Of a stretch of DNA of 64,000 nucleotides, positions 52 through 31,627 are shown piece by piece. Position numbers and translations under genes: made by a program. This DNA is from a virus: the IMG/VR virus record IMGVR_UViG_3300042114_000045, positions 1 to 64,000 of that record. The stretch is one strand, 5' to 3'. How positions within the stretch are numbered: the first letter of the stretch is position 1; every line of letters starts with the position of its first letter. Under the pieces are notes generated by a model, which did no database searches, was not told the DNA's origin, and saw only the letters and a program-made list of their open reading frames with translations.

Positions 52-1776
52 TTAACATTCAAGACTACTAATGTCATCTTGTGTTTGTTTTTCTACAGTA
101 TTATATCCTATACTTGCTGTATCATCGTTTATGTCAAACATACCTTTAGCTAATGGTTCTTCATCCATATAGTTCATTGTATACTCAGCAGACTCAAACA
201 ACACTCTTCGTACTTCTTGTATCGATGAACCAGTCACGTACCCATTAACAGCTTCAGTAATAACTTTCTCGGAATACATACTTTTTTTACCTGTTAATTC
301 TTTTACCTTGCTAACAAAAGTATTATATATATCTTCTGATAAACCATAATGAATACTGTTATATAGTTTTTCACTATCAGTATTTTTTACAATAAATGAA
401 CCAACTCTAGCATCTTTATGAACTTCAGTTGAATTAGCGTTATAATTACCATCAACGTCTACCGAACCTTTATCGATATAGTTAGTTTTGCTAAAACTTT
501 TCATACCGATATAATATGTTTTAACAAACTCTTTCCAGTTTATCCTATTGGTACTTTTATTAACCACTTTTAGCTTCTTATCTAATAATATACTTGGTAT
601 ACTGCTTTGTTTACTGTTAATATAATCAGCTAACATTGAAGCTTCTGTTGGTGAATTACCATACTGTTTTTGTACGAATACTGCATTATCAAGTTCACCA
701 CTATTTAGTTTTTGTCTAATAAGTGATAACTTACTTTCTACAGCTTTGTTAATTTTATAACCTTCTGGTATACCTTTTTTCAACCAATAAATAAACTGTT
801 TGTTCATTTTTAACTTCTCTTTATCATCTTTTGTAAACGATGCAAATGGGTTACTATAAACAGAACCTTTACCTATTCTAACAATAGTATCTTGTGTACC
901 CAGATTCAACGGTGTTAACTCTTTACCTTCAACAGCTACATCAGACTTGATTGCAATAGCAGATTCTTTATCACCAAACGTAGCATTATAAGCATCCTTA
1001 ATAGCGTTAATTGCATTTATAGCTTCCTTCTCATTATATTTACCGTGTGGTGCAAATACAATTTTACCGTTACCGTCTTTGGTAGGTTTGCTAAAGTCAC
1101 TAATATCCCTTGTACCAATACCAGCAAAGTTTTGAGTTAGCGTTGGAGCAGCGTCTAACTTATCCCATACACTCTTGTCTGTATCTACGTTCTCGTAGTT
1201 CTTTTTATACCATTGATTATCACGTGGTGAAAACACAAATATTGGTTTACTAGCTATCGTAGCCATTGCTACTGCGTATCCAGTACCACCATTAACAAAT
1301 TCACCATCCAATTCAGCTACCGCGTACACCGCATCAGAATTTGATACCTGTACCCAGTTTCTAGCAAGTAATCCAATTGTATACGAGTTAGTAGCGAATT
1401 TCTTATCTCCGTTAAGAAGTTTATGTGCACGTTTAGCCATTCTTACACCAACGGAATATTCGTCATCAGTTATTTCAGTATTGCCTTCTGAAGGTTTTGA
1501 TTTGTCAGAGTTACTTTTATAATAATGGTTTGATGTAACCCCAAAGGCTTTACCTATATCTCCCCAATATGTATCAGCTCCTAAAGCTCCACCGCTATGG
1601 TTTACAAACTTACCAGGAGTAGTAGTCTTCCTATTTCCATCAGCAGGTATAGCACTTGTAAATCTAGTAGTGTATTCACCAATACTATTAAGTATCGCTT
1701 TATCTTTATCTGTCATACTCTCCATAGCTACTAAGCTATCGAGAGATTTAATAAATTCTTCAATTATACAAGCCAC
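52..1776 (-). CDS. SLOG-like plus DUF4326-like protein, coupled to the virion RNAP
   Basis: About 574 residues. Residues 57-225 look like a SLOG (Rossmann-type nucleotide-binding) domain of the phage kind: SGGALGAD near 61-68, GGTGYAVAMA near 163-172, FAGIGTRDIS near 217-226. Residues 297-390 resemble DUF4326 (GKGSVYSNPF, then a helical part ending in LADYI). The C-terminal third is not recognised. Start choice: a TTG lies directly against AAGGA, whereas the GTG at 1776 is six bases from it and overlaps the stop of the RNAP gene (TAGTG), implying translational coupling. SLOG proteins bind or process nucleotide-derived ligands; the ligand here is unknown. It is probably a virion or early-acting protein because of its late-gene position. 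Confidence 0.75.
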   Translation of the reverse strand: MACIIEEFIKSLDSLVAMESMTDKDKAILNSIGEYTTRFTSAIPADGNRKTTTPGKFVNHSGGALGADTYWGDIGKAFGVTSNHYYKSNSDKSKPSEGNTEITDDEYSVGVRMAKRAHKLLNGDKKFATNSYTIGLLARNWVQVSNSDAVYAVAELDGEFVNGGTGYAVAMATIASKPIFVFSPRDNQWYKKNYENVDTDKSVWDKLDAAPTLTQNFAGIGTRDISDFSKPTKDGNGKIVFAPHGKYNEKEAINAINAIKDAYNATFGDKESAIAIKSDVAVEGKELTPLNLGTQDTIVRIGKGSVYSNPFASFTKDDKEKLKMNKQFIYWLKKGIPEGYKINKAVESKLSLIRQKLNSGELDNAVFVQKQYGNSPTEASMLADYINSKQSSIPSILLDKKLKVVNKSTNRINWKEFVKTYYIGMKSFSKTNYIDKGSVDVDGNYNANSTEVHKDARVGSFIVKNTDSEKLYNSIHYGLSEDIYNTFVSKVKELTGKKSMYSEKVITEAVNGYVTGSSIQEVRRVLFESAEYTMNYMDEEPLAKGMFDINDDTASIGYNTVEKQTQDDISSLEC

Positions 1777-4700
1777 TAACAATCCTTAAATGAGTTTACT
1801 ACGTTTGTTCTTATCTGTTTAAAGTTTTTTAACACAAACTTTTTAATATTATCTGATAGATCACTATCTTCAATATACGTATTTAATTCAGTAATTATAT
1901 CATAGTTATCTTTAGTATCTGCTTTTTTAGCTGTACCTACTTCAACAGCTCTATCTAATTTCTCTAACGCTTTTTCTATGATAGACACTTCATTTTCAAC
2001 GTTATCTGTAGCAAATACACCAAATCTTCCTTCAGGTAATGTTCCTGTCCAATTTTCGTCGGTATTGGAGTTATACCCAGTCATATCATCAGATATATAG
2101 TATTGTTTCATAACTATAGGAGTTCTAGCTAGTTGTCTTCTATCATCGTGCGTATTTCTCAATATCTGTAATACATCACTTGGTTTTACAATAGTTTTAT
2201 CATTACCTATAATTCTATTGAAGTTATTACTAACCATTTCAGCCAAATATGAATCAGCATCGATAGTACTAAATACATCAGGATTTCTACCGATAGTATT
2301 CAATAGTCTACCAACTGCTTCACCCAAACTACTATGATTCATATTTAACTCATAAAATGATTTATTCATTTGGTTGATTTGTTTATTATTCAACTCACTG
2401 TTTACACCAAGTACCAACGCATCAAATATATTTAATGTTTTAGTAGTGTGAGCATCAACCATTGTACTACCATCTAAACTATGCTTATCAGTAACTCCAA
2501 TAGCTCCAACGTTAGAAATAACCTCTTTTATTATTCTGTTAATGTTAGATATATTAGCTCTACTTTTATTAGATTGAAATTGGTTACCACCTATAACGAC
2601 TTGAATCGTATCTTCGGTATTTTCATTTTGTGTTTTGTAATAGTCTTGTAACCCACCTAATGAATTAGTTGCTGCGTAATAACTACCTTCGTCAATCATC
2701 TCTTTCAATATATCCGTAAGTTTATCGTCTGTAACACCACCTAGTTTTGAACTATTGTTGAATGCTACTAATTTATCTTCTAATATTTTCTTAAACGCAA
2801 CAAAGTTTAGTTCCTCAACTACTTTGTGTGCTATTCTAAACTTGTTAATATCATTAAAACTATCGTCGAATGCTTCTTCTAATTGATTACCAATAGCAAT
2901 AGTAACAGCTGAACCTACGATTTCTAGTTGCCCTTCTGATAGAAAGTATTTAGTTGAACCTTTGCTAGCAGGGACAAGTTTTAACTTATCTGTTTTTTGA
3001 TCATACTCATATGCTACTAAGTTTCTCTCGTTAAGTAATACGAATGCTTTATTTATAACTTCTTTATGACTATCATTAGTAGAATTAACACTACCTAATA
3101 GCTCTTTTAATTTATCAATCTTACCAGTCATTATTGCTTCTTTTGCTAGGTTGTATCCTGCAACTTGTTTTATATTTCTTACACTTGATCCGTAGATAAA
3201 CACCATTACTAAAGGTTTTAGAAACGTTCTCCATTTACCACCAATAATACTCTCAACTAAAACAGACATATCAGTAGCTTCGTTGCTTGCACTTAAAGCA
3301 TCAATAAAAGCTTCTTTAGGAGTTTCGTATATATCTTGTTTCCCACTATCTTTAAACTTACCATGAGACATATCTGAAGTTGCATTTTCTCCAACATACA
3401 TACCGGCTTTTTCATATAAGTAACTTGAAGTCCTACTTAATCCCATCTGTAATAACGTAGATGCCATACCATTTGTTATACCGTCAGCCTCTAACGCTAA
3501 GTTTGTAGTAAACTCTTCACCAACAGTCATAGCATATACCGCTTCTAGTGCTTGATGGATATGCATTATATTTTTTGCTGTACCTTCAATATGACTATCA
3601 CTTTGATTATCTACAGCATTTCTAAGATCGTATAGAGATACTGGTTTTACTTCACCTGTTACTTTATCAACCATCAATGCTTTTAAATAGTCACCTAATT
3701 CAGTTGCAACTTTTCCGTTCTCATCGATAGTAAATTTAACGTACTTCTCTAAATCTTTAATTACTTTCTCATCTAACTTTTTATCTGGTCCGAGCTCTAA
3801 AGCTTGAGCGATAGCTAGTTGCATATGTAGTAAATCACCTTCTGTCATATTAGAAGGATTAATAGTGTAGTTCATATCGTCAAGACTAACTATAAATCTT
3901 GATAGCTTACTGTTCTGAGGATTAATCCAAGAGTTATCAATCATACTTCTATTACTTACAGTATAATCCCATTTTAAAAAGAAATCTTTATCTTTAACTA
4001 AAGAGTACGTATCTAGCATTCTATCAATATCTAATGCATCAGCTGTATATGCAGCTTTAGTTTTTTCAAACTCTAAAGGGTGTACACTACTTAACATTGT
4101 AGTTCTACCACCAAGTAAAATCTGTTTAAATTCATACTTAACAGCATTATCAATAGCTTCTAGTAACGCATCTTCTCTGTCCTCTTTTGAGTCAAAGTTT
4201 TTGTCAGCTAATGATGTAGCAGCTTTTTTTGTCGCAATTTTAAGTACATCTTCATACTGTTTTTTGAAGTCACTACTAAATTTCCAAACCATCTTACCTT
4301 GTGCATTTAAGTAGTCTACAGCTTTTTTAGCGATACCGACCATACTATTTCTAGTAGTTGAATCATCTTTTCTATCTTTTATAGGACTAGTATCTATAGT
4401 AGCTTCTTTATCTTCAGCGGCAAACTCAAATACACCACCCATATTTGATATAGCACCATCTGAAACTTCGTAGTTTGTAATAGTACCGACACCAAAGCTT
4501 AGTATTTTAGTTACACGAGAGTTTCTTGCACCATCAGCACTCTCATTAGTTATAGCACCTGTACTAGAGTCACGTACTAATACTTCTCTAACAATACCAT
4601 TATTGTTTGCACTTCTTGTTGCAGTTAACGCGTTGTAGATAACCAGTTCACCTAATGCAAGTTGTGTATCAAGAACATACTGACCTGTAACATCTCCAAA

Positions 4701-7700
4701 GGTTATCTCTAACTGATTTAATAGCTCTCTACCAGCGTCTAGTACATATGTACTTGTAGGAACGTATTTACCTTCTCTTATATCACTAACAATTTTATCA
4801 ACCTCATATGTATCAGGAAACTCACCAATAGTATTGACGAAAGCACCTTCTACGTATTCCCTAATATCATTATCACTTTTATATCTAATTTCTTGCATAC
4901 TTTTTAATGTAAGTATTGTAGCCATGTTAAGAGCAGATTTAACAATATCTCTAGTCTCACTATTTGTTAGTAAGTCATTGAAAGAACTACCACCAACCAT
5001 TGTAGCTAACCCATTAGCTATTTCAGTACCTTTTTGGTTAGTAATATTAATATCAGCTCTATTATCCGTAAATTTTTTAAACTGTTTTATAGCTCTTCTA
5101 ACTTTTACAACACCAGCTTTACCTGAGTCTTTAATAACATTCGGCATTAACGGCATTAAATTATTAACTGCATTTTTTAGTGAAACATTCTCGTTAACTT
5201 TATTAGTCTTATCGACAGCTAATTGGTTAAGAATTTTACTCATCTTACTAGCAATTTGTTCTGGTCTACTACTGATATCAGAGTCAACTATACCTGGTAT
5301 AGTATTACTTATAGCTATTCTATTTGGAAACTTTTCAGCATAAATTGCTTTTTTCAATTCCTTAACTTCGTCTTTAAAGTTACGTATTTGAATAGCAGTT
5401 CTATTACTAGTACGTACTTTATTTTCTCTCAATGTAGCGTTAGCTGCATGCAAAGCTCTTTCTTGCTGTCTAATATCTCGTAATACTTCGTCGTAGTTGT
5501 AGATGTAACTTCTTATTCTGTTAATCGTATTTCTAGTTCTTGTAATAACACCTTTGTATGCAGTATAGCTTCTTCTAATAGCACCTAAAGCACCTTTGAA
5601 TAATTCTCTAACAATCTGTTTTGCACCTGTTGATGAGTTAAGTAATGCTTCTAATTCATCAAACTTACCGAAAGCTTTAACTAGAGTAGCTTCTGATTTT
5701 TTAATATCGTTTCTTGCTTCTTTAATTTTATTTGTAATAGCAACTTTCTTAGACTTAAGTTCACTTAGTGCTTTATTGTTATTTCTAACACTAGCAGCAA
5801 TCTTTTTATTAATCGTAATAGCTGCACTAAGATCTTTCTGTAAGTCATTTAAGTTATACTCAACAGCACTAAGATTTTCTTCAAGTATCAATAATTTACT
5901 AGTAGCATCTTCAATGTTATCACTAATAGTACCTGCGTTATTATCTACAAGTACCTCAGATACATCAGTACCAAATGAAGATAAATCTATATTTGTATCA
6001 GTACCCTCTTCTACAGCTACGTCATTGTAGAAACTATCTGGTGGTGTGTTATCATCCACAGTAGGTACTTCTTCAGTACCAGTATTATCTACGTTATTTT
6101 GATACGAATACCCTTCATCATCATAAGTATACTCACCATTTTTTATATCACTATAATCTGCGTCATTGATCCCAGCTTGAACTGGAGCAGCTATAGTACT
6201 TTGTTTTGTAATGATGTCCCCATTAGCATCTAATTCATAATCCTCGTAAGATTCATCAACTTGATCTTCATAAAAATTATCGTTAGAGTTACTAGTTGAC
6301 TTTCTTACTATATCACTAGGGTTAATACTTTTAACAAACGATGTACCATCAGCTTTTGTAACTTCAACATCTACGTTGCCAATTACACTAACAGATGGTC
6401 CAACTAACGTACCTGTAGCTTCTTTATCACCGTATGAGTATACAACTCTCGAACCAATACCAAATCTATTAACAGCAGCCATAGAATTTTCATTTGTATA
6501 AGCTCTTTTAATTTCATTGTCAACGAAAACTTTCTCACCAGCACCAGCAACTGCAGTAATTAAATCTGCACCAGTTAAGCTAAGTAAGTGTTTATAATCG
6601 TTAATTGAAGCATCTAATGACTCTAACGCTTTTGTTAATTTAGTTCTAGTCTCATCTGTAAGGTTAGTACTAGTTAACGAAGTAGAAGCAATATTTTTTA
6701 ATTCAACTGTTTCATCTAGTCTTTTTTCAGCTAGCCTTTTAATAGAAGACGTTGATCTAAGAGTTCTTGATATAACATTACCTTTTTCATCTTTTACTTT
6801 ATCTACTGCATTAAGTAAATTGATACCTCTTGATTCAGCAAAGTTAATAAATTTATTAAGAGCAGATGCATTTGAATCTTTCATACTTGGTATATTATCA
6901 GATTTTGATATAGCTTCCATATCTATAGCGTGGTCTTTGATACCTTTGTACCAAGTTTTACCTAGTGCGTATCCGTACTGTGCCTCTAATTCAACGTCTT
7001 CAATAGTTTTTTTCTTAGGAGGTTTACCACCATTACCACCGATTTCATTGTTACCTAATACAGTCTCCATAGCATTACCTAATTTGTCTAATGGTTCACT
7101 ACCGAATGATTGCATAGTTGCAATAAGTTTTGCTAAACCAGCTAACTCATTGTCTGGTATCTTATCAGTATCAATATTAATACCGTGTTTCTCTTTTAAG
7201 TTAATAAATTTCTCTCTTAATTTATCAGAGAACATATCAGTTACTTCTTTTTCAACAAATTTATTACCTTTGAAAGCAGACATAAGAGTTTGAATAATAT
7301 GGTTTGATTCACCTTCAGAAGCTCTTTGATTTCCATTAGTACTAGAATCTTTACCATGTATCCATTCACCAAGTTTTTTAGCAACTTGACCAGCTATAAC
7401 TTCTTTACCTTCAGTAGTAGCCACTCCGTACATTTTTGAAACCATATCAGTTGTATCTTGTACAGCTTTAACGTTATTACCGTGCACAGCTGCAACATTA
7501 TTTATACCAGCTTTTATGTCTTCAGCAGTAGATGGCTTATCTTGTAAACTTTTGTAAGCTTTTAATGTACTATCAGCAGCACCTCTAATAGCAGCATCAA
7601 TAACAGTACCTTTGTGCTCCTCTGGGATATTTTCTGCGCCTACTGTTTTTACCATATTCATAATAGAATTTCTACCAGAACTTAATTCTGGGTCAACTCT

Positions 7701-9521
7701 ATTGAATATATAATCAGCATATTCTTTCTTTAGCTTACTACCTTCTTCATTATGTGCAATTAATTCGTCACCAGTTTTTACTAAACCAGCCTTGTAGTTA
7801 TCATTAATTTTTGTAGAAAATTCAGATGCAACATCATCAATAAACGAAGTATCTCTTTTACTATCTAGTATATCATAAGGAGTTCCAGCCATAGCCATAG
7901 CAGCACCTGCGTGATGACCTAACACACCTTGTACAGCTAAGTCCAATCTTTCATTAGCATTAAATAACTTACTCTCATTCTTAGTACCGTACTCTTTACC
8001 TACGTTTTCAGCAGCACCTTGTATAATCTCTTCGATTCCTTCGATAGCACCACTTTTACCGATATGATGTAGTCTATTTTTTACTACTTCCCAAGTTCCT
8101 TTATCTAATGCTTTAGCTAGTTCAGCTACTTCTTTTTTAGTCTCATATAAACCAGCATTACCGCCAGTAAATCTATTTACAACTCCATATACAACAGAGG
8201 CAGCAGTAGCGATAGCGTAGTCTTTAAACCCTAGCGGTTTACCATCAGCAGCTTCTTTTCTCTCGTCAAGTATGTTATTCATTTCATTAGCTATGATTAC
8301 ACCAGTACCAACGTATTTACTAGCCCCACCAATTATGTCACCAATACTAGTTGCTAGTACTTCAGGAGATTGCATAATACCTTTTGCAGTAACTGCAATT
8401 TTATCTAGTACACTAGTATCATTAGAGTTCCACACGTTTTTAAACGCTTGAGAGTAGTTTGACACACGTCTATCATTATAACCATAAGTAGTCATATCTT
8501 TATACTTATCAAAGTATTTGAAGTCTCCGTCTTCTGTAAAGTACTTTCGTAGCTCTGGTGCTTTATCCAAACTATGTTTGAACGTATTTGTAACTTCTGC
8601 ATCTGACATACCAGTAGCCATTGCTACTTTCTTTCCTAAGAACATTCCCGCATCGGCTACAACATCTGCAGCACTGAATAGAGTTTTACCTACTGAACCT
8701 GCGGCTCCGTGTGCAAGATTAGTAAGGTAATTACTATCTTCAATATTTGCACCACGTAATTTAAACTTAGATTCCATCTCATCAGCTGCATTTGGATTAG
8801 CCCATAAACCAACTTTATTATCTCTTGCTTCTTTTCCTACATTAAGTAAGTCACTTTTAAACTCGGTATATGGTACAGCATAACCTTTACTAATCATGTA
8901 TTTAGCATACTCATCGTTTTTAATTAAAGGTCTACCGAATTTATCGTTAGTGCTGTATGAGCCTTCTTTATCTAACGACACATTAGTTGCTGCAGATTGA
9001 CTATCATTAAATGAGGTTACTGACGCACCGGTATTAGTAAGGATATTTGGTCCAGTATCATTAACAGACGTTAAATACCCTTCCATAGTAGCAATTTTTC
9101 CACCAGAAACGTTAGCAGCATCTTTATCGCTATACCCAAGACCGTTTGCAGCAGTATCGGAAGCAGCTTTTATTGCATTATCAAAGTCTTTTATTTTCGT
9201 AGCATCAGTAGTTTTAGCTCTTAAAGCTAATAGTTTTTGTACCCTACCTTCAGCAAGTTGTTTCATTTTATCGGATGAAGTAGCTACTAAAGTGCTTTTC
9301 GCTACTTCAGGAGTATCCATACCAAGAATCCTATATCCTTGGCTATGAATCTTACCAGTAGAATCTTTATGTATTCTGTAAGGTGAGTCACCATCATGAA
9401 CTACGTATTCTGCGTTTTCAGGTACTGGTTCAATACCCATAGTTTTATTAGTTAGCTTTATGTAATTATCGAGTTGTGCGCCTTTAGTAGCATTGCCACC
9501 TGCAAATTGTGTACTTGTCAT
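1776..9521 (-). CDS. Virion RNA polymerase, N4 type, with N-terminal SNase-like domain
   Basis: 2,581 residues. The RNAP motifs of the T7/N4 single-subunit family are visible: TVSNR (T1854-R1858, the T/DxxGR position), motif A in EADGITNG (D2013), motif B with R2098, K2102 and Y2110 at the exact +4/+12 spacing followed by GSS, and motif C in NIFDALVLG (D2367). The B-to-C distance (265) is close to that of N4 vRNAP. Residues 38-245 match staphylococcal nuclease: HDGDSP (42-47), R64, DTPE (69-72), FGRPL (195-199) and EARDNKVGLW (231-240), with all active-site positions kept. Residues about 1,200-1,400 are coiled-coil-like. In N4 the enzyme is packaged, ejected with the DNA, and transcribes early genes. 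Only one cysteine (the last residue) is present. ATG has AAGG upstream. Confidence 0.9.
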   Translation of the reverse strand: MTSTQFAGGNATKGAQLDNYIKLTNKTMGIEPVPENAEYVVHDGDSPYRIHKDSTGKIHSQGYRILGMDTPEVAKSTLVATSSDKMKQLAEGRVQKLLALRAKTTDATKIKDFDNAIKAASDTAANGLGYSDKDAANVSGGKIATMEGYLTSVNDTGPNILTNTGASVTSFNDSQSAATNVSLDKEGSYSTNDKFGRPLIKNDEYAKYMISKGYAVPYTEFKSDLLNVGKEARDNKVGLWANPNAADEMESKFKLRGANIEDSNYLTNLAHGAAGSVGKTLFSAADVVADAGMFLGKKVAMATGMSDAEVTNTFKHSLDKAPELRKYFTEDGDFKYFDKYKDMTTYGYNDRRVSNYSQAFKNVWNSNDTSVLDKIAVTAKGIMQSPEVLATSIGDIIGGASKYVGTGVIIANEMNNILDERKEAADGKPLGFKDYAIATAASVVYGVVNRFTGGNAGLYETKKEVAELAKALDKGTWEVVKNRLHHIGKSGAIEGIEEIIQGAAENVGKEYGTKNESKLFNANERLDLAVQGVLGHHAGAAMAMAGTPYDILDSKRDTSFIDDVASEFSTKINDNYKAGLVKTGDELIAHNEEGSKLKKEYADYIFNRVDPELSSGRNSIMNMVKTVGAENIPEEHKGTVIDAAIRGAADSTLKAYKSLQDKPSTAEDIKAGINNVAAVHGNNVKAVQDTTDMVSKMYGVATTEGKEVIAGQVAKKLGEWIHGKDSSTNGNQRASEGESNHIIQTLMSAFKGNKFVEKEVTDMFSDKLREKFINLKEKHGINIDTDKIPDNELAGLAKLIATMQSFGSEPLDKLGNAMETVLGNNEIGGNGGKPPKKKTIEDVELEAQYGYALGKTWYKGIKDHAIDMEAISKSDNIPSMKDSNASALNKFINFAESRGINLLNAVDKVKDEKGNVISRTLRSTSSIKRLAEKRLDETVELKNIASTSLTSTNLTDETRTKLTKALESLDASINDYKHLLSLTGADLITAVAGAGEKVFVDNEIKRAYTNENSMAAVNRFGIGSRVVYSYGDKEATGTLVGPSVSVIGNVDVEVTKADGTSFVKSINPSDIVRKSTSNSNDNFYEDQVDESYEDYELDANGDIITKQSTIAAPVQAGINDADYSDIKNGEYTYDDEGYSYQNNVDNTGTEEVPTVDDNTPPDSFYNDVAVEEGTDTNIDLSSFGTDVSEVLVDNNAGTISDNIEDATSKLLILEENLSAVEYNLNDLQKDLSAAITINKKIAASVRNNNKALSELKSKKVAITNKIKEARNDIKKSEATLVKAFGKFDELEALLNSSTGAKQIVRELFKGALGAIRRSYTAYKGVITRTRNTINRIRSYIYNYDEVLRDIRQQERALHAANATLRENKVRTSNRTAIQIRNFKDEVKELKKAIYAEKFPNRIAISNTIPGIVDSDISSRPEQIASKMSKILNQLAVDKTNKVNENVSLKNAVNNLMPLMPNVIKDSGKAGVVKVRRAIKQFKKFTDNRADINITNQKGTEIANGLATMVGGSSFNDLLTNSETRDIVKSALNMATILTLKSMQEIRYKSDNDIREYVEGAFVNTIGEFPDTYEVDKIVSDIREGKYVPTSTYVLDAGRELLNQLEITFGDVTGQYVLDTQLALGELVIYNALTATRSANNNGIVREVLVRDSSTGAITNESADGARNSRVTKILSFGVGTITNYEVSDGAISNMGGVFEFAAEDKEATIDTSPIKDRKDDSTTRNSMVGIAKKAVDYLNAQGKMVWKFSSDFKKQYEDVLKIATKKAATSLADKNFDSKEDREDALLEAIDNAVKYEFKQILLGGRTTMLSSVHPLEFEKTKAAYTADALDIDRMLDTYSLVKDKDFFLKWDYTVSNRSMIDNSWINPQNSKLSRFIVSLDDMNYTINPSNMTEGDLLHMQLAIAQALELGPDKKLDEKVIKDLEKYVKFTIDENGKVATELGDYLKALMVDKVTGEVKPVSLYDLRNAVDNQSDSHIEGTAKNIMHIHQALEAVYAMTVGEEFTTNLALEADGITNGMASTLLQMGLSRTSSYLYEKAGMYVGENATSDMSHGKFKDSGKQDIYETPKEAFIDALSASNEATDMSVLVESIIGGKWRTFLKPLVMVFIYGSSVRNIKQVAGYNLAKEAIMTGKIDKLKELLGSVNSTNDSHKEVINKAFVLLNERNLVAYEYDQKTDKLKLVPASKGSTKYFLSEGQLEIVGSAVTIAIGNQLEEAFDDSFNDINKFRIAHKVVEELNFVAFKKILEDKLVAFNNSSKLGGVTDDKLTDILKEMIDEGSYYAATNSLGGLQDYYKTQNENTEDTIQVVIGGNQFQSNKSRANISNINRIIKEVISNVGAIGVTDKHSLDGSTMVDAHTTKTLNIFDALVLGVNSELNNKQINQMNKSFYELNMNHSSLGEAVGRLLNTIGRNPDVFSTIDADSYLAEMVSNNFNRIIGNDKTIVKPSDVLQILRNTHDDRRQLARTPIVMKQYYISDDMTGYNSNTDENWTGTLPEGRFGVFATDNVENEVSIIEKALEKLDRAVEVGTAKKADTKDNYDIITELNTYIEDSDLSDNIKKFVLKNFKQIRTNVVNSFKDC

Positions 9522-11463: not shown

Positions 11464-13518
11464 CTATCCCCTGAAACCAGGTTTATTGCCAAATGAACTG
11501 AACTTAGCATAGGTATCAACTACGTATTTATCAGGTCTTGCGTAAGCACCTCTAACAGTCTGATCATAAACACCTGAAAAGTTATACCTCATATTACTTG
11601 CGTACTCTGGTGCACTATCTTTTAACTGTTTTTTTAATCTGCGGCTTTCCTCATTTTCATCATCTATTCTACCTTGTAGCTTTATTCTGTCCTCACTACT
11701 CAGTAGATTTACTGTATGATTTACTATACTTAAACTTTCTTGTATTTCTACCATAGTAAGCGAAGGTTTATTAGCTAGTACTGCTTTAAATTTATCTATA
11801 TCAGTACCATTGGCTATGGCAGCTTCGTTGGCTGCAGCATTACTGATAGTTTGAGCTGCTGTAAATATTGCTAAAGCAACTAAAGCATATTGAGCATACC
11901 TTGCTTGAGCACCTTTTATTATACCCATCTGCATACCAAGACTAAGTACTGTAGAAGCTACAAACGCATAACCTACTGCTGCACTAACTTCAAATGCTGC
12001 AGGCCCCATCCACCAAGCCATAATACAAGTAATTATTATTGAGATAACTTGGTCGTATGGGCATGGATTTCCTGACTCAGTTTTTACAGTCATACCCATA
12101 AACATCAGTTCCATTTTAACTGCTGGAGGTAGTGCTAACCACCAACTATTCCTTATCTTATACACAAAATACTCGGTACGAGCACTTGATGTTGTATGAC
12201 CATCATCATCTGTTGTTTCATATATAGTTATTTGTTTACAGCTATCACTTGCGTAAAGGTCAGGAGCTGGAAGATGTTGAATTTTACTCCATACCCTACC
12301 TATGTCATCACCATTCATACCTACTTGTGTATACCACATTCGTATATCATAAAACTCTTCATTAGTTAAAACAGCACCAGATTGAGCTTTTGCTCTAGCA
12401 GCAATGACCCTATCAATTTCGGTGTAGTCTGCTACTTTTGGATCACCTGATTCCTCTAATTGTGCTATACTATTTACTAGAGTTGTTGGTGTTCTAACGA
12501 ATACGTAGTTGAAGAAATTATCTATATCAGCATCATTTATCTGTAACTTATCCTGATCTGTTACATTAGCTATGGGTTTTCCGTACTTGTAGGCAGCGAT
12601 ATCAAGTATATCAATCAACCCTCTTAACTTTCTTCTATTGCTTTTACTTGTTGGTATTTCAACAGATAACTTCACAGAATCAAGTGTACCACCATATTTC
12701 ACATCTTTAAATGCTTGGTCTAAACCAGCTGACTCCATTATTGCTTTTATCTCTTCGTACCAAGCTGGATAAAACTCGGTAAGCATTCTTTGGCAATTAG
12801 CTTTAACTTTTGCTAGTATACTAATAATTTGTGAAACTGTATAAAGTAAATGATCACCTTGTTTTTCATTTATTATAGCACCAGTATTCACCAGTACTTC
12901 AGGAACTGTATTTTTTACTGTATTGAGTAGTTCTAGATTTGTTACAATATACTGCATTAAGTTACTAATGTACAGTGGCAACTCCTCCCTATCAGATGAT
13001 ATTACTGTTGGTATTCCACTACCGTAATTTACCATAGGGTACGTAGACATATCTTTATAAGTAGGAATCATAATACCTGTTGGACTAACTGGCATATTGT
13101 TATAAAAACTATTCCCTGTATAATTACTAAGACCAAAATAGAATACGTTACTAGTAACATTATGTGCATACTTGCTTTGGTAGTAGTACACCTTTGAAGA
13201 GTCATTGTCAATCTTAGAACTAATTTTAATAAAATCAACGCTAACGGAGGTATTAGTTGCTTTGGTTTTATCTACCAACTCAAGATCCGAGTACGCTACA
13301 ATAGAAGGTGTAGGAACAACACTATTAACAACACCTATTCTAAACATAAATGTATCAGTATCCTTATCAGCAATGTTGTTTTCAAGAAACGTTACTGTTT
13401 GGTCAACATAATTTACTATCTTAACAAGGTCATCTTTATCGAATGCAGACGCGTCTGAATCCCAAACTAACTTTAATTTAGTTGAGGAGTTAGTATTATT
13501 TGTTGCACTACATCCCAT
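11464..13518 (-). CDS. Putative ejection protein with hydrophobic segments
   Basis: About 684 residues. Residues about 480-560 form two to three hydrophobic segments (around MAWWMGPAAFEVSAAVGY and YALVALAIFTAA), followed by a charged C-terminal helix (residues about 620-640, Glu/Arg/Lys-rich). Such segments in a phage internal protein suggest insertion into the cell envelope during DNA entry, as proposed for other podovirus ejection proteins; this is inference. The ATG at 13,527 touches GGAAGG, so the ATG nine bases later (13,518, MGCSATNN) is the better start. It overlaps the end of the upstream gene by 11 bases. Confidence 0.7.
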   Translation of the reverse strand: MGCSATNNTNSSTKLKLVWDSDASAFDKDDLVKIVNYVDQTVTFLENNIADKDTDTFMFRIGVVNSVVPTPSIVAYSDLELVDKTKATNTSVSVDFIKISSKIDNDSSKVYYYQSKYAHNVTSNVFYFGLSNYTGNSFYNNMPVSPTGIMIPTYKDMSTYPMVNYGSGIPTVISSDREELPLYISNLMQYIVTNLELLNTVKNTVPEVLVNTGAIINEKQGDHLLYTVSQIISILAKVKANCQRMLTEFYPAWYEEIKAIMESAGLDQAFKDVKYGGTLDSVKLSVEIPTSKSNRRKLRGLIDILDIAAYKYGKPIANVTDQDKLQINDADIDNFFNYVFVRTPTTLVNSIAQLEESGDPKVADYTEIDRVIAARAKAQSGAVLTNEEFYDIRMWYTQVGMNGDDIGRVWSKIQHLPAPDLYASDSCKQITIYETTDDDGHTTSSARTEYFVYKIRNSWWLALPPAVKMELMFMGMTVKTESGNPCPYDQVISIIITCIMAWWMGPAAFEVSAAVGYAFVASTVLSLGMQMGIIKGAQARYAQYALVALAIFTAAQTISNAAANEAAIANGTDIDKFKAVLANKPSLTMVEIQESLSIVNHTVNLLSSEDRIKLQGRIDDENEESRRLKKQLKDSAPEYASNMRYNFSGVYDQTVRGAYARPDKYVVDTYAKFSSFGNKPGFRG

Positions 13519-14257
13519 AGTATTCATCCTTCCAAGTATTATAGTGTTTATCAGTAATATTGAGTAAGTACTTATGTTTTATATACTCTAGCATGTCAAA
13601 GTAAGTATACATAAAAGTATACAATTTTTCCTTATCATTTTTTTCTTCGTTATTAACAATATCTACGAGTTTGATTATGAACGTTTTAAACAGGTACTCA
13701 TACACTTCTTTACTATTATCATCACTATTAATCAGTGTGAGCATGTCTTTACCGATTATAAGGTAACTTTTATACATTCTACCTAACTCTTCGTTAGTTC
13801 TAGTGTAGTTACTAGAGTAACCTTCTAATATTGATAAATATAAGTTATTTTCTTCAGCAGCTTCAATAGTAGCTGTACATATAATTGATATACCTTTAAA
13901 TACATTTACTACGTCATCTAGAGCTGTAATAAAAGCACACCCAATACTACCTAACCCTAGAGCATTTGTCACATCATATATAACTCTTTTTATTTCTCTG
14001 TACAACTTAGCGATCAAACACGTTGGCGTACTACCATCATAAATATCTTTTATGAATTGTGATAGTTCTATCCCGTCCATTAACCCATCTGGAGTTACTA
14101 CTGCATACTTATCCCAGAACCCAATGTCATTATCCGCATTGCCAAATACATTAACGTAGCTTCCACTATGTAACTGCGTGGATTTTAAAGCAGTTAGTAA
14201 GTTCTCGCTAGGAGACTTACCAAATGAATAAGATATTGGTGAAAATGATGAAATCAT
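13508..14257 (-). CDS. Late structural protein of unknown function
   Basis: 249 residues, predicted mixed with several amphipathic helices (around YEYLFKTFIIKLVDI) and no recognised domain. It sits 3 bases after the stop of the upstream 319-residue gene and overlaps the next one, so it belongs to the virion operon. A tail or internal component is likely from context only. Confidence 0.7.
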   Translation of the reverse strand: MISSFSPISYSFGKSPSENLLTALKSTQLHSGSYVNVFGNADNDIGFWDKYAVVTPDGLMDGIELSQFIKDIYDGSTPTCLIAKLYREIKRVIYDVTNALGLGSIGCAFITALDDVVNVFKGISIICTATIEAAEENNLYLSILEGYSSNYTRTNEELGRMYKSYLIIGKDMLTLINSDDNSKEVYEYLFKTFIIKLVDIVNNEEKNDKEKLYTFMYTYFDMLEYIKHKYLLNITDKHYNTWKDEYYGM

Positions 14258-15233: not shown

Positions 15234-16076
15234 TTATTGTTTATCTACAACAAAACTACCGTAGAAGCCACCAAATCCATAGGATACAACACAACCAGTT
15301 CCTTGTTCGTTTGTATCTTCTATAAACATAAGCATATCTACTAACGAAGACATACCTTGTGTATTACCGTGTAATCCTGTATATGATAATATCTTACCAT
15401 AATGTTCTTTAATATTATCTTTAAATCCGTTATAATAGGTAATAATACTATCTGCCGGAGTAAAAACTTTTTTAAGTGAATCAAATATAGGGTATGAGTA
15501 AACACCGTATGAGTACGTAGTTTTAATATCTTTTATTTCTGTACCCTCACCTTCTTTAGAGAATACACATATAATGTACCCTTCACCAAGTACGGTAGGT
15601 AATCTATACTCTTTTAGCATATCTATGTTACTTTGTTGTAACTTATCTTCAGCTATAACTACGACGTGTTTGCATTTACCGCTGTCTAGTAATTGTTGTG
15701 CTTTATCGAGCGCCCATACACCACTAGACCAACCAGTAGCTATAATATCAACATAACTAATATTGTTATTAATGCTAAGCACGCTAACATATTTGTTAAC
15801 CATATAACTCATATTAGACAGAACGTACTTTTGTGGTGTACTATCAGTCTCAACAGTATACCTTAACTCACTTGTATGGTGTGCTTCACCACCAACGTAT
15901 ATTACACCCACGTCTCCGTCAAGTACTATACTATCTAGAAATTCTCTGCAGTAAGGACTACTAATATTACCAGTTGTAATATGCTCGTTATATTGAACAG
16001 GGGTATATAACCTAAATAGGTTATTATCTACGTCATAGTTGCTTGATAGCATATGCTTATATTTACTTAAAATCAT
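15234..16076 (-). CDS. Thiolase-fold, ketoacyl-synthase-III-like protein (probably catalytically inactive)
   Basis: 280 residues. Residues 105-172 follow the FabH/KAS III nucleophile region: ISYVDIIATGWSSGVWALDK, then LLDSGKCKHVVVIAEDK, then the counterpart of LFGDGAGA (VLGEGYIICVFS, 162-173). Near the C-terminus HGNT (236-239) matches the YGNT motif that carries the catalytic Asn, and SYGFGGFYGSFVV (265-277) matches the final glycine-rich strand. The catalytic Cys position holds Ser (117/118) and the catalytic His appears replaced (YYNGFKDN, 214-221), so it probably lost condensing activity. It is shorter than FabH (about 317). It sits between tail-type genes, so a structural role or acyl/pantetheine binding is possible. 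ATG has AAAGGA upstream. Confidence 0.65.
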   Translation of the reverse strand: MILSKYKHMLSSNYDVDNNLFRLYTPVQYNEHITTGNISSPYCREFLDSIVLDGDVGVIYVGGEAHHTSELRYTVETDSTPQKYVLSNMSYMVNKYVSVLSINNNISYVDIIATGWSSGVWALDKAQQLLDSGKCKHVVVIAEDKLQQSNIDMLKEYRLPTVLGEGYIICVFSKEGEGTEIKDIKTTYSYGVYSYPIFDSLKKVFTPADSIITYYNGFKDNIKEHYGKILSYTGLHGNTQGMSSLVDMLMFIEDTNEQGTGCVVSYGFGGFYGSFVVDKQ

Positions 16077-16085
16077 TTGTTTCCT

Positions 16086-17207
16086 TTATATATACTTATC
16101 GGCTTTTGTAGTATAGATTGGGTATTGTAGAAATCCAATCTCTTTCTCAGAAGATGTAGTAGCATATCCTGGTAATGAAGGAGCAGATACTTTCCATCCA
16201 AGTATGCTATTAAATATCGCACCAAAAAACGATGCTTCTTTTCTTTCTGATTTAAACATAGTCTCTGTTTTATGTATAACATATCTACTTTCAATAGTTT
16301 TTTCGCCGGTAGGCCTAAATAACGCGTAGTAACTTCTTGATATACCTAATCCTTCAGCGTATGCGCTTTTTGAATCTCTTTTAACATATGTACTTGTTGT
16401 ACTGCACGTGTTAACCCTTTTCATGTACACTAGGTATAGATACTTAGATGTAGAATATACACCACTATTACTAGTAGGTGTGTATGATGTTATTGTAGCT
16501 GTACTTGAAGTAACTGGATATAATGCATCAATAGTTGATATACTACCACCAATATGAATTTTACCTACGTTATTACTACCAAAACCAAAAAACTTACTTG
16601 TAGTACCGCCATTAGTAGCTTCTAAGATATCTTGTATATTACTTCGTTGTTGGCTGGCAGACATATTTTGTATAGCTTCAGTAACTGTGTTAAATGATAT
16701 ATTCCCAGAAGTATCAGACGTGCTTGCAGTATTAGCTAACGGTAGTCTAGCATTTTGCGGAACTATTAAAGTACATTCTCCGTGTATATCAAGTATTGGT
16801 CTATTAGAATCAAACGTTAACTTATTTAGTGAATTCTTTATAGTTATACCAAATGATGCAGAACTACTGCTATAAATACTTACTTCAGTAAACACAACTA
16901 CGGTTGGTCTATCACCTACGTATCCTAGGGTGATAACTAAAGTACCATCATTTGTATCAATAGCTTGACCTAGAACAGCACCATAAGACTGAGCAGTGTT
17001 AAACCTCAAAAAACATAAATACACAACATCTGTATGTACTATTGGTACTCTAAATACCTCAGTCTTTAATGTATCACTTGTGAAATTAATAGTTATATTA
17101 TTATTTGTACCATTGATGGTAGTAAAATGAACTAGTGTTGAATAATCAGAAGCACCGTTCATTAATAAATGTCCATGCTTATTTAACGCAAACATTCCAT
17201 ATTGCAT
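16086..17207 (-). CDS. Tail-associated structural protein
   Basis: 373 residues, beta-rich, opening with MQYGMFALNKHGHLLMNG, a style common at the N-terminus of small tail-tip or fibre proteins of phages ('plays as object with default state'). Rich in Ser/Thr/Asn, one membrane-neutral hydrophobic patch near residue 95. An AGGGAGG ribosome binding site lies seven bases before the ATG. It lies between the 1,183-residue protein and the KAS-like protein. The exact role is unknown. Confidence 0.7.
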   Translation of the reverse strand: MQYGMFALNKHGHLLMNGASDYSTLVHFTTINGTNNNITINFTSDTLKTEVFRVPIVHTDVVYLCFLRFNTAQSYGAVLGQAIDTNDGTLVITLGYVGDRPTVVVFTEVSIYSSSSASFGITIKNSLNKLTFDSNRPILDIHGECTLIVPQNARLPLANTASTSDTSGNISFNTVTEAIQNMSASQQRSNIQDILEATNGGTTSKFFGFGSNNVGKIHIGGSISTIDALYPVTSSTATITSYTPTSNSGVYSTSKYLYLVYMKRVNTCSTTSTYVKRDSKSAYAEGLGISRSYYALFRPTGEKTIESRYVIHKTETMFKSERKEASFFGAIFNSILGWKVSAPSLPGYATTSSEKEIGFLQYPIYTTKADKYI

Positions 17208-22849: not shown

Positions 22850-22850
22850 A

Positions 22851-23662: not shown

Positions 23663-24169
23663 TTATTTACTTAGCATACTAGGAAGTTTGCTAAGTTTTA
23701 CTTTAGCTTCTTCTACAAGCATCTGTCTCTCAACAATACCTAGTCTATTAACATTAGGAGTACTCGTAGCTGTACCATTTATATAATCTACGGTTACGTC
23801 TACTGGGAAGTTACTTTCTAGTTGTAGTTTTTTTGATAAAACATCGATTTGTGTTGCTATCTTTTGTAGTAGTTTAATTTCATTATCTACGCGTATACCA
23901 TCAATTTGCGCTTCTACTAACTTTTCTTGTAGTGCATACTGTATACTTTGAGTTATTACTGTTTGTAAACTACCTAAGTAAACATCAGCGTATTTGTTAT
24001 CATCAATACGACCATTGTCATACTGTATAGAAGTAGCATCATTTATTACTTGTATAAGTTTATCTAGTATACCTGGAGTTTGTCCTGCGTCTAAAGTCCA
24101 TGCATATTGGTTATCTACTAGAGCTTTATGTCCGACACTTATATCTTCTATGGTGATATTTGTTGCCAT
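23663..24169 (-). CDS. Late structural protein (helical)
   Basis: 168 residues, helical, with a Gln/Lys/Leu-rich centre (VEAQIDGIRVDNEIKLLQKI) that resembles small tail-completion or connector proteins. AAGGATAATTA then ATG. Eight bases separate it from the next gene. No family recognised. Confidence 0.65.
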   Translation of the reverse strand: MATNITIEDISVGHKALVDNQYAWTLDAGQTPGILDKLIQVINDATSIQYDNGRIDDNKYADVYLGSLQTVITQSIQYALQEKLVEAQIDGIRVDNEIKLLQKIATQIDVLSKKLQLESNFPVDVTVDYINGTATSTPNVNRLGIVERQMLVEEAKVKLSKLPSMLSK

Positions 24170-24898: not shown

Positions 24899-26128
24899 TT
24901 ATTTAGAAGCTAGTACGTCTACTCTTAATAGTTTTTCTTCTTCAAGGATAATTCCAGCGTACCAGAAGTTATAAGAGAAGAAACCTTGTGTTCCGTATGG
25001 GTTGATTAGCTCAACTTGCTCAGGAGATTTGCTGTTAAACTTGATTTTATCGTTACCTTTAAGACCAACAGTTGCGAATGCACCTTGAGTTGGGTAAAGG
25101 ATTGGGAATACGTCAAAGTATGTTCCAGCAACAGCACCTAAACCTCTAGCAGCTACAGCAGCAGCATTGTCAGCAAAAGTTGTAGCACTTAAAGAACCTG
25201 TGTATCCAGCTGTAACCTCAGCACCTTTACCGTAGTAAACAACAGCTTGTTCAGCTTCAACGAAAATAGTTTCGTGCATTGAACCAACTTCACCTTGTAC
25301 ATATGTACCAGCATCAGCATATTTGTGAACAGGTGTAAACACGTATTCTTTCTCATATCCTGTACCTCTTGTTAAGTTCTCAAGGTCAGCTTTAACATCA
25401 GCACCAATTACAGCATAGAATGCTTTAGCAACTGTTTTTGTATCAATTTTTGTTGAACCAGTAACCATTGAACTTGTTTTTTTAGCTCTGTTTCTAACAA
25501 GTTTTCTACTTGCAGCTCTGATAAGGTCGTAAGAAACTTTCCATGAAGCATCTGCAGCACCAAGAGCATCAACACCTGTACCTAACGTAGCCATACTTGA
25601 AGCAGCACCTGCATACATTTTAGTAGTTGTACTTAACAAATCCATTTGAATTAAGTCTTCGTATCTAACGTTAGCTAATTCACCTAGTTCTTCTCTATAT
25701 TTAACTTGGATAAAATCCTCTGAAAACATATCTACTTCATCAGTAAAGTCCATCATTTCACCATATCTAGCGAAGCTAGTATCGAATGTAACTTTTTGTA
25801 ATGATCTTTTGTTTTGTGCACCTGCACCTTCACTTAATCCAGCACTCGCTAAAGCAGCAGATACAGCATCAGCACTTCTTGCAGTCATAAAACCTTTTGC
25901 AGCAAAATCACCATCAGTAGCTAAGTTTCTATCATACATATGTAAGAACTTACTAATTTTAAATGTTTTACCCATATTCAATGGCATAGATTTTCTATCC
26001 GCGAATTGTCCATAAACTTCAACTCTGTTTGCTGCTTTAATACCAGCCCTGTCATAAAAATGCGTTATCGTATTAGCACCAGCTGTTGCTGTTGTTGTAC
26101 CATTACCGTATACGTTTGTTATTGCCAT
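24899..26128 (-). CDS. Major capsid protein
   Basis: 409 residues, the usual size of N4-like capsid proteins (HK97 fold expected). The pattern DFTDEVDMFSED followed by a long helix (YREELGELANVRYEDLIQMDLL) and the closing GYFSYNFWYAGIILEEEKLLRVDV are typical of this family. It has no cysteine. It follows an acidic scaffold-like gene and is followed by a strong hairpin. A good AAGGA site precedes the ATG. Confidence 0.88.
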   Translation of the reverse strand: MAITNVYGNGTTTATAGANTITHFYDRAGIKAANRVEVYGQFADRKSMPLNMGKTFKISKFLHMYDRNLATDGDFAAKGFMTARSADAVSAALASAGLSEGAGAQNKRSLQKVTFDTSFARYGEMMDFTDEVDMFSEDFIQVKYREELGELANVRYEDLIQMDLLSTTTKMYAGAASSMATLGTGVDALGAADASWKVSYDLIRAASRKLVRNRAKKTSSMVTGSTKIDTKTVAKAFYAVIGADVKADLENLTRGTGYEKEYVFTPVHKYADAGTYVQGEVGSMHETIFVEAEQAVVYYGKGAEVTAGYTGSLSATTFADNAAAVAARGLGAVAGTYFDVFPILYPTQGAFATVGLKGNDKIKFNSKSPEQVELINPYGTQGFFSYNFWYAGIILEEEKLLRVDVLASK

Positions 26129-26169: not shown

Positions 26170-27324
26170 CTAGTATTTAGCCTGTAACTCGTTATACCAC
26201 GCATCGTAGCTTTCTTCTGAATCGTCTAGATAATCTACAATTGTCTTACCAGCTTTCGCTTTGGTAGGAACAGCAGCCTTTCTAGCTTCAGCAGCAGCTT
26301 TCGTTGCATTTCTACTTTCCGTTTGTTTCTTAACTTCTGCAATTCTGTCAACAACAGGAGCTACAGCAACTACTTTTGGTACTACTGGTGCAACCTGTGC
26401 TTTCTGTGCGTTAAGAGTAGCAAAGTTGTTAATCGCTTTATTGTTGTGGTACTTAGTACCAGCTTCTATAAAGTACTCTAAGTCACTTTTAATTCCATCA
26501 TCTAAAGCTTTTAACTTCTGTGCTTCTGCATACACAAACTTATAGTCACCGTTTTTAACATCAACATGTAGACTCTCAATAAGCTTAGGGTTTTTAAAGA
26601 ATTCTGTTCTAGAACGTTCATCCCATTTATTTGCTATGATATCAGCTGTTATACCGAAATCAGCATCTCCCTCAAACTTTGATACTACATCTTGAATAGC
26701 TATCTCCGTATCATCTCGACCATAATTCTTTGGCTGATAATTAATGTTATCTGTGTCTAATTCGAGGGCATCAACGCCAGTTCGTTTCATTACACTTGCA
26801 ATAGCATTCTTATCGCCCTTAAGTACATCTATGAAAAGATTAACATCGTCATGTGTTAAACCATTATCTTTCAGCGCGCTTATGGTTTTTCTCCAAGGAG
26901 AAATCTCTTGCATTTTCTTCGTATAATCCATTGCTTTTGGAGCTAGTTGTAACAACTCAGGTAGTTCAAAATCGAACTCTTGTCCATTTGCTTTAACTTT
27001 ATACTTTTGTACTTCTTGTACCTTTGGTTCTTCTATCGTTACTACTTCTTCTACTGGTTCAGCAATTTCCCCGTCAGGATCTACTGAGGCATCATCATTA
27101 ACAACTACAGGGTCATTTTGTGTACTATTATCATCGGAGTCCTCACCGGGTTGTTCCAATTCTTCTTCTTCTTCTTCGTACTCAATTTCTTCTTCTATCT
27201 CTTCTACTGGATCTTCATCCATGTCATTCTGTAATTCTGCCACACCTGAACTTAATTCTTCCTTAGCCGCATAAAAAGCTACTTCTAGCTCTTCATCTGT
27301 CATATCATATATACTTTTTGACAT
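26170..27324 (-). CDS. Scaffold-like protein
   Basis: 384 residues, immediately upstream of the capsid gene. Residues 35-115 are extremely acidic (Glu/Asp runs), the centre is helical, and residues 320-365 are Ala/Lys-rich. This acid N-terminus/basic C-terminus layout is usual for phage scaffolds, which line the procapsid and leave or are degraded. No protease motif is seen. Confidence 0.75.
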   Translation of the reverse strand: MSKSIYDMTDEELEVAFYAAKEELSSGVAELQNDMDEDPVEEIEEEIEYEEEEEELEQPGEDSDDNSTQNDPVVVNDDASVDPDGEIAEPVEEVVTIEEPKVQEVQKYKVKANGQEFDFELPELLQLAPKAMDYTKKMQEISPWRKTISALKDNGLTHDDVNLFIDVLKGDKNAIASVMKRTGVDALELDTDNINYQPKNYGRDDTEIAIQDVVSKFEGDADFGITADIIANKWDERSRTEFFKNPKLIESLHVDVKNGDYKFVYAEAQKLKALDDGIKSDLEYFIEAGTKYHNNKAINNFATLNAQKAQVAPVVPKVVAVAPVVDRIAEVKKQTESRNATKAAAEARKAAVPTKAKAGKTIVDYLDDSEESYDAWYNELQAKY

Positions 27325-29569: not shown

Positions 29570-31627
29570 TTAAGCCTTGTTGGCTTTTAGTTGTGCTTCT
29601 TTATTCTTCTGAATAAGCTCTGCTATCTTAACCTGCAGATCATGTGCTCGCATATCAGCAGCTTCTTGTGCTTTATGTCCAGCAAGTACTTCTTCGTGGT
29701 CATGATCTACGGCTTTCATCTCAATATTCTGTCTATGAGTTTGTTCAGCCCTTTGCATTTCTTCATGCATCTGTATACCTTGATCACTTTTAAGGAAATC
29801 AAGATCAAGTCTATCAGCTTCACTGCCAAGTTTTCTAGCTTTAGCAGCTTCAACTTCAGCTTTTTGTGTTTTAAGTTGCATATCAATTTTGTTTTCGTTA
29901 GCTCTAGCTTTTAAGTCTTCTATTGTAGCTTGTAAAACAGCATTCTCTAACGTAGCTTTTTGAAGTGCTAGTTGTTTCATTTGTTCAGCAGCAGGATCTG
30001 GTTGAGGTTGGTACGTTCTTAATTTCATTGCTTGTTCTGGCATTCTCATTAATTCCATTATCTGAGCCATTATTTCTTTTCTAATTGCAGGATCTTCGTT
30101 CGGACCTACGGTTTGCAATAGGAAACTTAACTCCTGACTCTTAGCCGCATTATCTTCAGCGGTACTAATCTCGATATCAATATCAATGTTACCAGTTAAG
30201 TCATCTTTTCTAATAGCTACGAATTCTTCGTTAGTAACCCTGATAACTTCTTCTTCACTTAGAAACTCAGCATTGTACGCCATCCATTTTCTCATTAAAG
30301 GTTTAATAGCATTTTCTGCTATGTTTCTAACTAAGTTCATTCTTCTCGTAGCTGTTGCGTCTAAGGCACCTCTAGCACCCGTAGCTGTTCCACCTAAACT
30401 GTTACCTGTAATACCACCACTGAAACTTTTAACACCAGTTAAACTCTCTATTTCATTGTTCATAAGACCAAGTACATCAAATGCACTATTAGGCAGTACA
30501 TTAAATTGTCCAAACCAGAAATCATTTGGTGTTCCATTAAATTCAAAGTTTTGTCCACCTACCCATTTCTTTCTATTAACCGCATCAAGAGCACCTTTTC
30601 TAACACCTACTTGTCCATTATTGCTTTGAGCCATATTATCAATAAGTCCTCTAATAATAGCCGTCTTAACTTTTTGACTGTCACCAATCATTTCAGCATT
30701 AGACTCACCATGCAATTGAAATGGTACACTACTAAATGGTGCAACAATAAATGGGGGTTTCTTATCAGGATAAGGATTACTTTGCAGTCTAATTATAGTA
30801 TCACCAACCCAAGCACATACAATAGCTTCAGCGATACCATCATTATTAACATCGTAGTTACCCCAATACTCATACACAACTATTTTCTTTCTTGGATCAT
30901 CTCTAAACCTAAATACAGTTGTATCTTGTGGTCTATAGGTTGTATCTCTTTTATCGAGTGATTGTGCAAGTTTATCAAGGTTCTTATATCTTCCATCTTG
31001 TCTAAGTGTACTCATATCAGTTTCATATCTATGAATAACGAATTGACTCTTATCTAAATCATCCATACAAGTAGGGTCTAGATAAATGTCTTCATTTCTA
31101 CATATCTTAGCAGTAGGTCTATTTCTTAAAATCTTTAGTTCAGTAGATTTCTCTGTAACTACGGTTTCTCTTCCATCAGGTCCCATAATAACTGTTTCAA
31201 CATCAACATCAATTTCTTGATCTTCATAATCCCAACCAGTTTGAATAATAGCGGTACCTTCAGTACTCATAATTTTAACTAACCTAGTAACAAAATTATA
31301 TCTATCAAACTGTCTACAGAATTGAGTATTAAGTAACAACTCACTTTGTCTAGCTGATTTAGCATCTTCAAATGTAACAGGTAAAGCTTTAACTATGTTA
31401 CTACTACTTACAAATGGATCAACTAGTGTAGCGTGTTGCCACTCTCTTTGTCTCTTTATATCTCGTGATACTATTGACGATTTACCTTTTACCTCATTAC
31501 CATATGGATCTCCGTTATCTTCACGTTTCCATGAAAGTATCTGTGAATCCCATTCTCTTTTTAGTATTTCAGCACTCTTTAAATCTGCTTTTAGTGTTGC
31601 CAATAACGTAGTTTTATCTATCTTCAT
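29570..31627 (-). CDS. Portal protein
   Basis: 685 residues, the length expected for podovirus/N4-type portals. The order is typical: N-terminal KREWDSQILSWKRE, a central domain around YWGNYDVNNDGIAEAIVCAWVGD and IVAPFSSVPFQLHGES, then GITGNSLGGTATGARGALDA, and a long charged helical C-terminus (residues about 560-680, Glu/Lys/Gln/Ala) that would form the barrel inside the head. The portal ring is the DNA-entry vertex to which the terminase and tail attach. A TAGGATAATTA-type site precedes the ATG. Confidence 0.88.
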   Translation of the reverse strand: MKIDKTTLLATLKADLKSAEILKREWDSQILSWKREDNGDPYGNEVKGKSSIVSRDIKRQREWQHATLVDPFVSSSNIVKALPVTFEDAKSARQSELLLNTQFCRQFDRYNFVTRLVKIMSTEGTAIIQTGWDYEDQEIDVDVETVIMGPDGRETVVTEKSTELKILRNRPTAKICRNEDIYLDPTCMDDLDKSQFVIHRYETDMSTLRQDGRYKNLDKLAQSLDKRDTTYRPQDTTVFRFRDDPRKKIVVYEYWGNYDVNNDGIAEAIVCAWVGDTIIRLQSNPYPDKKPPFIVAPFSSVPFQLHGESNAEMIGDSQKVKTAIIRGLIDNMAQSNNGQVGVRKGALDAVNRKKWVGGQNFEFNGTPNDFWFGQFNVLPNSAFDVLGLMNNEIESLTGVKSFSGGITGNSLGGTATGARGALDATATRRMNLVRNIAENAIKPLMRKWMAYNAEFLSEEEVIRVTNEEFVAIRKDDLTGNIDIDIEISTAEDNAAKSQELSFLLQTVGPNEDPAIRKEIMAQIMELMRMPEQAMKLRTYQPQPDPAAEQMKQLALQKATLENAVLQATIEDLKARANENKIDMQLKTQKAEVEAAKARKLGSEADRLDLDFLKSDQGIQMHEEMQRAEQTHRQNIEMKAVDHDHEEVLAGHKAQEAADMRAHDLQVKIAELIQKNKEAQLKANKA

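Follow-up and report, generated by a model that had tools for sequence, protein, structure and literature searches.

This locus raises the question of why a protein resembling a ketoacyl synthase (KAS) should be encoded among the genes of a phage particle, and whether such a protein can still act as an enzyme there. The window (the whole stretch of DNA that was analysed, 64,000 nucleotides) corresponds to positions 1-64000 of a virus record of 122,779 bases (122.8 kb), and the features discussed here are summarized in Table 1. The gene under study, P0001, is surrounded by those for the portal, tape measure, major head and virion RNA polymerase-like proteins and lies, therefore, inside the virion module. 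Since these four genes are present we consider the window phage to be N4-like, and the giant virion RNA polymerase and the N4-type head genes are indeed those by which N4-like phages (Schitoviridae) are recognised. The major head protein shares 58-67% identity with its counterparts in Alteromonas phages AD45-P1, R22Y (59%) and PT11-V19, and R22Y was assigned to Schitoviridae by its authors (PMC11705849). Two further observations concern the window phage itself: the start of the virion RNA polymerase-like protein resembles by eye a staphylococcal-nuclease-like domain (HDGDSPYR...RILGMDTPE; Pfam SNase, E=0.029, below cut-off), and ten tRNA genes are clustered at window positions 50802-51596 on the minus strand.

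Table 1. Features of the window and of related contigs (window positions unless a contig is named).
Feature	Position	Strand	Basis or remark
Virion RNA polymerase-like gene, 2581 aa, N4-like hallmark	1776..9521	-	phrog_2206, E=2.6e-26
Late protein, 687 aa, two hydrophobic segments, candidate ejection protein	11464..13527	-	
Pseudo-ketosynthase gene P0001, 280 aa	15234..16076	-	intact ORF, alignment, structure match
Glycine-rich C-terminal strand SYGFGGFYGS, conserved in family	15255..15284	-	alignment A2; G267, G269 kept
Asn238 codon, catalytic His 2 column	15363..15365	-	His in 68/68 relatives
Thr233 codon, active-site Lys column	15378..15380	-	Lys in 68/68 relatives
Tyr214 codon, catalytic His 1 column	15435..15437	-	His in 68/68 relatives
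Trp116 codon, catalytic Cys column	15729..15731	-	Cys in 68/68 relatives
Shine-Dalgarno-like AAGGAA just ahead of P0001 ATG	16081..16086	-	read from sequence
Virion structural protein gene (phrog_2050)	23663..24169	-	directly before ACP-KAS cassette in most relatives
Major head protein gene	24899..26128	-	2.7e-79 (PHROGs); query for finding relatives
Gene annotated tape measure, N4 gp57-like	26170..27324	-	PHROGs
Portal protein gene	29570..31627	-	phrog_1216, E=1.5e-190
ACP-like + third gene, no KAS	L130 (PP212876.1) about 22420-23197; L131 (OP751378.1) 17349-18099; L021 8854-9571		

Taken alone, the P0001 protein gave sub-threshold matches to Pfam ACP_syn_III (E=1e-3, below cut-off) and NCBIfam fabH (E=1.5e-3). 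Its weak PHROG matches were at chance level, and a Radical_SAM Pfam match, which covers the KAS core, was discarded as spurious. Matches of this strength would agree with a likeness to FabH motifs that arose by chance and not by common descent. However, the alignment of the N4-like family (A2) matched that of a second group of phage KAS proteins (clade 2, A8) with E=3e-24 in an hhalign profile-profile comparison, and the family profile retrieved from the PDB almost solely KAS and thiolase-fold enzymes. The AlphaFold2 model of P0001 built from the family alignment (pLDDT 77.5, pTM 0.81) displayed the five-layer alpha-beta-alpha-beta-alpha arrangement of the thiolase/ketosynthase fold. When this model was compared with the PDB by Foldseek, 893 chains were matched with E<=1e-3, ketosynthases on top. 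VIA-align superposed it on 6kxf_B with a Z of 24.1 (3.2 A, 261 residues), and dozens of KAS were tied with this chain within 1-2 Z units (Z 22-24, about 260-276 residues). As modelled, P0001 is thus a member of the thiolase/ketosynthase fold, a feature on which the original prediction had staked itself. Together with the synteny with intact KAS genes described below, the model already refutes chance resemblance, to which we give practically no weight. An intact relative (in contig L044) was modelled better than the window protein (pLDDT 85.7) and superposed on 7f28_B with a Z of 27.3 (3.7 A, 269 residues).

When P0001 alone was used as query, neither IMG/VR nor a set of 50,697 phage records yielded a match, and its relatives were reached only through the neighbouring major head gene, which led to 37 loci, four of them with a homologue at the equivalent place. 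With two alignment scans, the relatives amounted to 29 other N4-like contigs in total, their KAS proteins being 276-293 aa long. A further relative, annotated as a 3-oxoacyl-ACP synthase, was found in MW202545.1 (ctpbd312) in another gene setting, with P22-like tail genes, and used as a lead it disclosed 51 more IMG/VR loci from a different lineage. Together with MW202545.1 these make up clade 2, whose KAS proteins exceed the cut-offs of Pfam for the two ketoacyl-synt domains (PF00109/PF02801). The search for homologues in other phages, by which the original prediction could be checked, was accordingly productive in both lineages. None of the proteins recovered was a close relative of the window protein. 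Among the 50,697 records no countable member came from an isolated phage and only one from a metagenome-assembled record, in keeping with the earlier statement that such a fold is no regular component of phage virions. Matches in Enterococcus, Listeria, Staphylococcus and Pseudomonas "phage" records were not counted, as they covered the query partially and at 23-28% identity; being partial, unannotated and often on short contigs, they look like bacterial FabF contamination. Host contamination is likewise suspected for the FabF-like pieces in unannotated "phage" records of Listeria, Enterococcus and Staphylococcus (H33-H49). Bacterial and archaeal genomes, when scanned with a narrow pattern, disclosed no relative, a result compatible with the existence of cellular or prophage kin. 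Two side observations were made on these contigs. In MW202545.1, the start of UOF78413.1 was probably annotated too late (L040 11620-11785), since the family frame extends upstream and abuts the ACP-like gene. In L028 (1504-2362) and L032 (7776-8633), about 860 bases break the major head gene after approximately residue 49; this insert contains an HNH-endonuclease-like frame and is therefore probably a group I intron or a similar mobile element.

We compared the active sites in an alignment of 69 distinct sequences (the window protein, 24 N4-like and 44 clade-2 sequences). The Cys-His-Lys-His tetrad was intact in 24/24 N4-like and 44/44 clade-2 proteins, whereas the window protein carries W/Y/T/N in these columns and lacks, therefore, the nucleophilic Cys, the two catalytic His and the active-site Lys of KAS I/II. 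Because all four catalytic residues are replaced, we refer to P0001 as a pseudo-ketosynthase. The Cys-His-Asn triad of KAS III was not found either, the corresponding residues being W/Y/N in the window protein and Cys-His-His in the relatives. Consequently, of the original description of a KAS-III-like protein in a virion module, the ketosynthase fold and the location hold, but the family to which the protein belongs is of the KAS I/II type. The serine said to take the place of the catalytic Cys was misplaced by one position, as three alignments (phmmer, MAFFT and hhalign) put Trp116 in the Cys column and Ser117 in the next one. On the other hand, the absence of His at the expected place was correctly noted, Y214 and N238 replacing both His residues (and T233 the Lys), and the final glycine strand is indeed conserved in the family. 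The HGNT motif compared with that of FabH is present, but it aligns with the family IGHTQG, so that its N falls in the second-His column. Conservation in 90% or more of the N4-like sequences was seen at 34 columns; the window protein retains 14 of these, including G63, G237, G241, G267 and G269, and loses 20. A maximum-likelihood tree placed P0001 within the N4-like clade with a support of 100/100. Its branch there measures 3.72 changes per site, a length that makes its exact neighbour inside the clade unsure.

The gene order around the intact KAS genes was the same in the two unrelated phage lineages, in both of which the cassette is located among the structural genes of the virion module. 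An ACP-like gene, usually overlapping the KAS start, was directly upstream of KAS in 27/27 N4-like contigs and 51/51 clade-2 loci including MW202545.1 (78/78 of the relatives with upstream DNA, by a per-contig tally from the gene-order table). A third small gene followed KAS in 27/27 N4-like and 47/48 clade-2 cases. The ACP-like proteins have the serine of a DSL-type motif, the small size and the acidity (pI 4.1-4.8) of acyl carrier proteins, with Asp-Ser invariant in a [LIVM]DS[LMF] motif (13 and 14 rows in the two sets). Their profiles matched carrier proteins in the PDB, NodF best (E=1.6e-4), with E values of about 0.005 for ACPs from plants and bacteria, and the N4-like and clade-2 sets matched one another with E=1e-7. 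As no single member reached the Pfam cut-off, we base the assignment on the combination of profile, motif, size, charge and context. The third genes had no known relatives in profile searches and did not match between the N4-like phages and clade 2; kinship with GNAT-type acyltransferases or T7 gp13 seemed plausible by eye but obtained no profile support. The gene after the N4-like cassette encodes hydrophobic segments as in candidate ejection proteins, and clade 2 mostly lacks them; the 687-aa candidate of the window had no phmmer match to those of the relatives. The KAS gene is optional in the cassette, since the ACP-like and third genes were found without it at an equivalent place of the virion operon in contigs L021, L022 and L037 and in two cultured Alteromonas phages, R22Y and PT11-V19. 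In the window's own record, which may be incomplete, neither two family profiles nor PF00550 (which gave a match in 12/14 control genomes) disclosed an ACP, and no third gene and no other KAS was found.

We believe that these results are best explained if the window protein belongs to an ACP-linked family of phage ketosynthases but is itself dead, evolving fast and retained for a role without catalysis, probably in assembly, a reading to which we assign a probability of roughly 0.6. P0001 would have descended from a phage-specific family of KAS I/II type whose gene occupies, within the late virion operon in N4-like phages, the middle of a cassette with the order acyl carrier protein, ketosynthase and third small protein. 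In the window phage the acyl chemistry would have disappeared, and the protein, still folded, would now serve assembly or the particle in some way other than catalysis, for example as a scaffold or binding partner. We infer this retention because the partners and catalytic residues were lost while the frame and fold were kept. It is quite unlikely, to our mind, that P0001 is instead a decaying gene, left without ACP and function and drifting toward loss. Such decay would account for the very long branch and for the loss of catalytic residues and partner genes, but unconstrained divergence should have yielded stops, and a composition-matched sequence would stay open over the 280 codons with a probability of only ~4e-12. 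Moreover, the codon-position GC pattern is normal, and both the ribosome-binding-like site and the structural glycines are retained. Chain length factors are KAS-fold proteins devoid of the catalytic Cys that stand beside type II polyketide ketosynthases. The tied top structure matches include KS/CLF complexes (6kxf, 6kxd and 6qsp), and P0001 might thus pair with a host ketosynthase or ACP and shape or block its activity, altering host fatty-acid synthesis. This we regard as improbable, since many ordinary KAS are tied in Z, the gene lies in a late virion operon and not among early host-takeover genes, and the record holds no partner KAS. Docking of an ACP, too, is probably altered, because many of the 20 replaced columns belong to active-site motifs. 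A retained pseudo-enzyme in the service of assembly remains our preferred reading of P0001, and for the window protein, with active site and carrier gone and fold and position kept, the earlier idea of a scavenged fold turned structural is plausible. It does not extend to the family, as 68/68 relatives have the complete tetrad together with an ACP-like gene, and for the proposed acyl/CoA sensor we found no specific support in the window protein.

From what is known of these families, phosphopantetheine should be carried by an ACP with this DS-type motif, and acyl groups on ACP should be condensed by a KAS with the Cys-His-Lys-His tetrad. The relatives, from dozens of other uncultured phages, and their matching carrier gene point to a hitherto undescribed use of acyl-chain chemistry beside phage particle assembly. 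In the intact cassette, host AcpS would load phosphopantetheine on the phage ACP, and KAS would condense or extend an acyl chain on it. The third protein may bind this chain or pass it on, the most likely acceptor being a virion or ejection protein encoded by the next genes; such a transfer is suggested by position, because the third genes match nothing, nor each other. Tentatively, and as a somewhat doubtful extension, we propose that in two unrelated phage lineages the cassette is dedicated to building an acyl chain that becomes attached to a virion or ejection protein, which could thereby, for instance, enter the host membrane, the window enzyme having turned into a structural or assembly protein.

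The ACP that a profile disclosed in R22Y (L130) belongs to the same set, at the same place, as the cassette ACPs and, in a record that carries no annotation, is probably the published gp30. It is possible, if rather doubtful, that the intact family is an ordinary auxiliary metabolic set, composed of ACP and FabF, through which host fatty-acid synthesis is raised or redirected; its position among virion genes would then mean late expression only. The catalytic tetrad is conserved throughout the relatives, gp30 was itself proposed as an auxiliary metabolic gene acting on host lipid metabolism (PMC11705849), and a prophage fabG-acpP-fabF set was interpreted similarly (PMC8224337). Nevertheless, the cassette is sited between structural genes in both lineages, nearly always with the third gene, further fatty-acid genes were not recognised next to it, and ACP and third gene persist without KAS. 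Also, the sequences are distant from cellular KAS, the best PDB matches being at 10-20% identity. If, on the contrary, the cassette acts on the virion, these phages would lipidate or otherwise equip their own particles or ejection proteins by acyl-carrier chemistry. Phage ACP genes, so far considered auxiliary metabolic genes, would then become particle-assembly genes in at least one group. The window protein represents a clear case of an enzyme fold that stays in place after losing all its chemistry. Since R22Y and PT11-V19 are cultured, their ACP and third gene are open to direct testing. We know of no phage in which acyl-carrier chemistry serves the lipidation of particles or ejection proteins.

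In the literature searched, with subscription papers mostly outside its scope, we found no account of ACP and KAS genes forming a cassette within a virion module. Related genes have been reported, such as the acyl carrier protein of Erythrobacter phage R6L, called an auxiliary metabolic gene (PMC5463345), and fabF in pelagimyophages (PMC7029224). The database entries phrog_35856 (unknown function; clade-2 KAS match 1e-41), UOF78413.1 and BFVD A0A6J7X0R1 ("FabB" from an uncultured phage, the closest viral structure) are listings for which we found no description of a cassette or virion-module setting. R22Y itself differs from the intact cassettes in being devoid of KAS. With regard to chain length factors, the window protein shares a KAS fold without the catalytic Cys, and 6kxf_B is among its tied top matches, but it has Trp in the Cys column and its record carries no partner ketosynthase gene. 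KAS III (FabH) provides the best single-sequence matches, with a size near 320 aa and a GNT motif also present in the window protein, but FabH has Asn where the relatives have the second His (GHTQG), and the window protein also lacks the Cys and the first His. Finally, the phage relatives have in common with KAS I/II (FabB/FabF) the thiolase fold and the C-terminal glycine strand, and retain the Cys, the His in HGTGT and the Lys and His in YKxxIGHTQG. The N4-like members are shorter than FabF (about 410 aa) and are set apart by their place in a virion operon, paired with a phage ACP-like gene, and the window protein has 0/4 of the catalytic residues.
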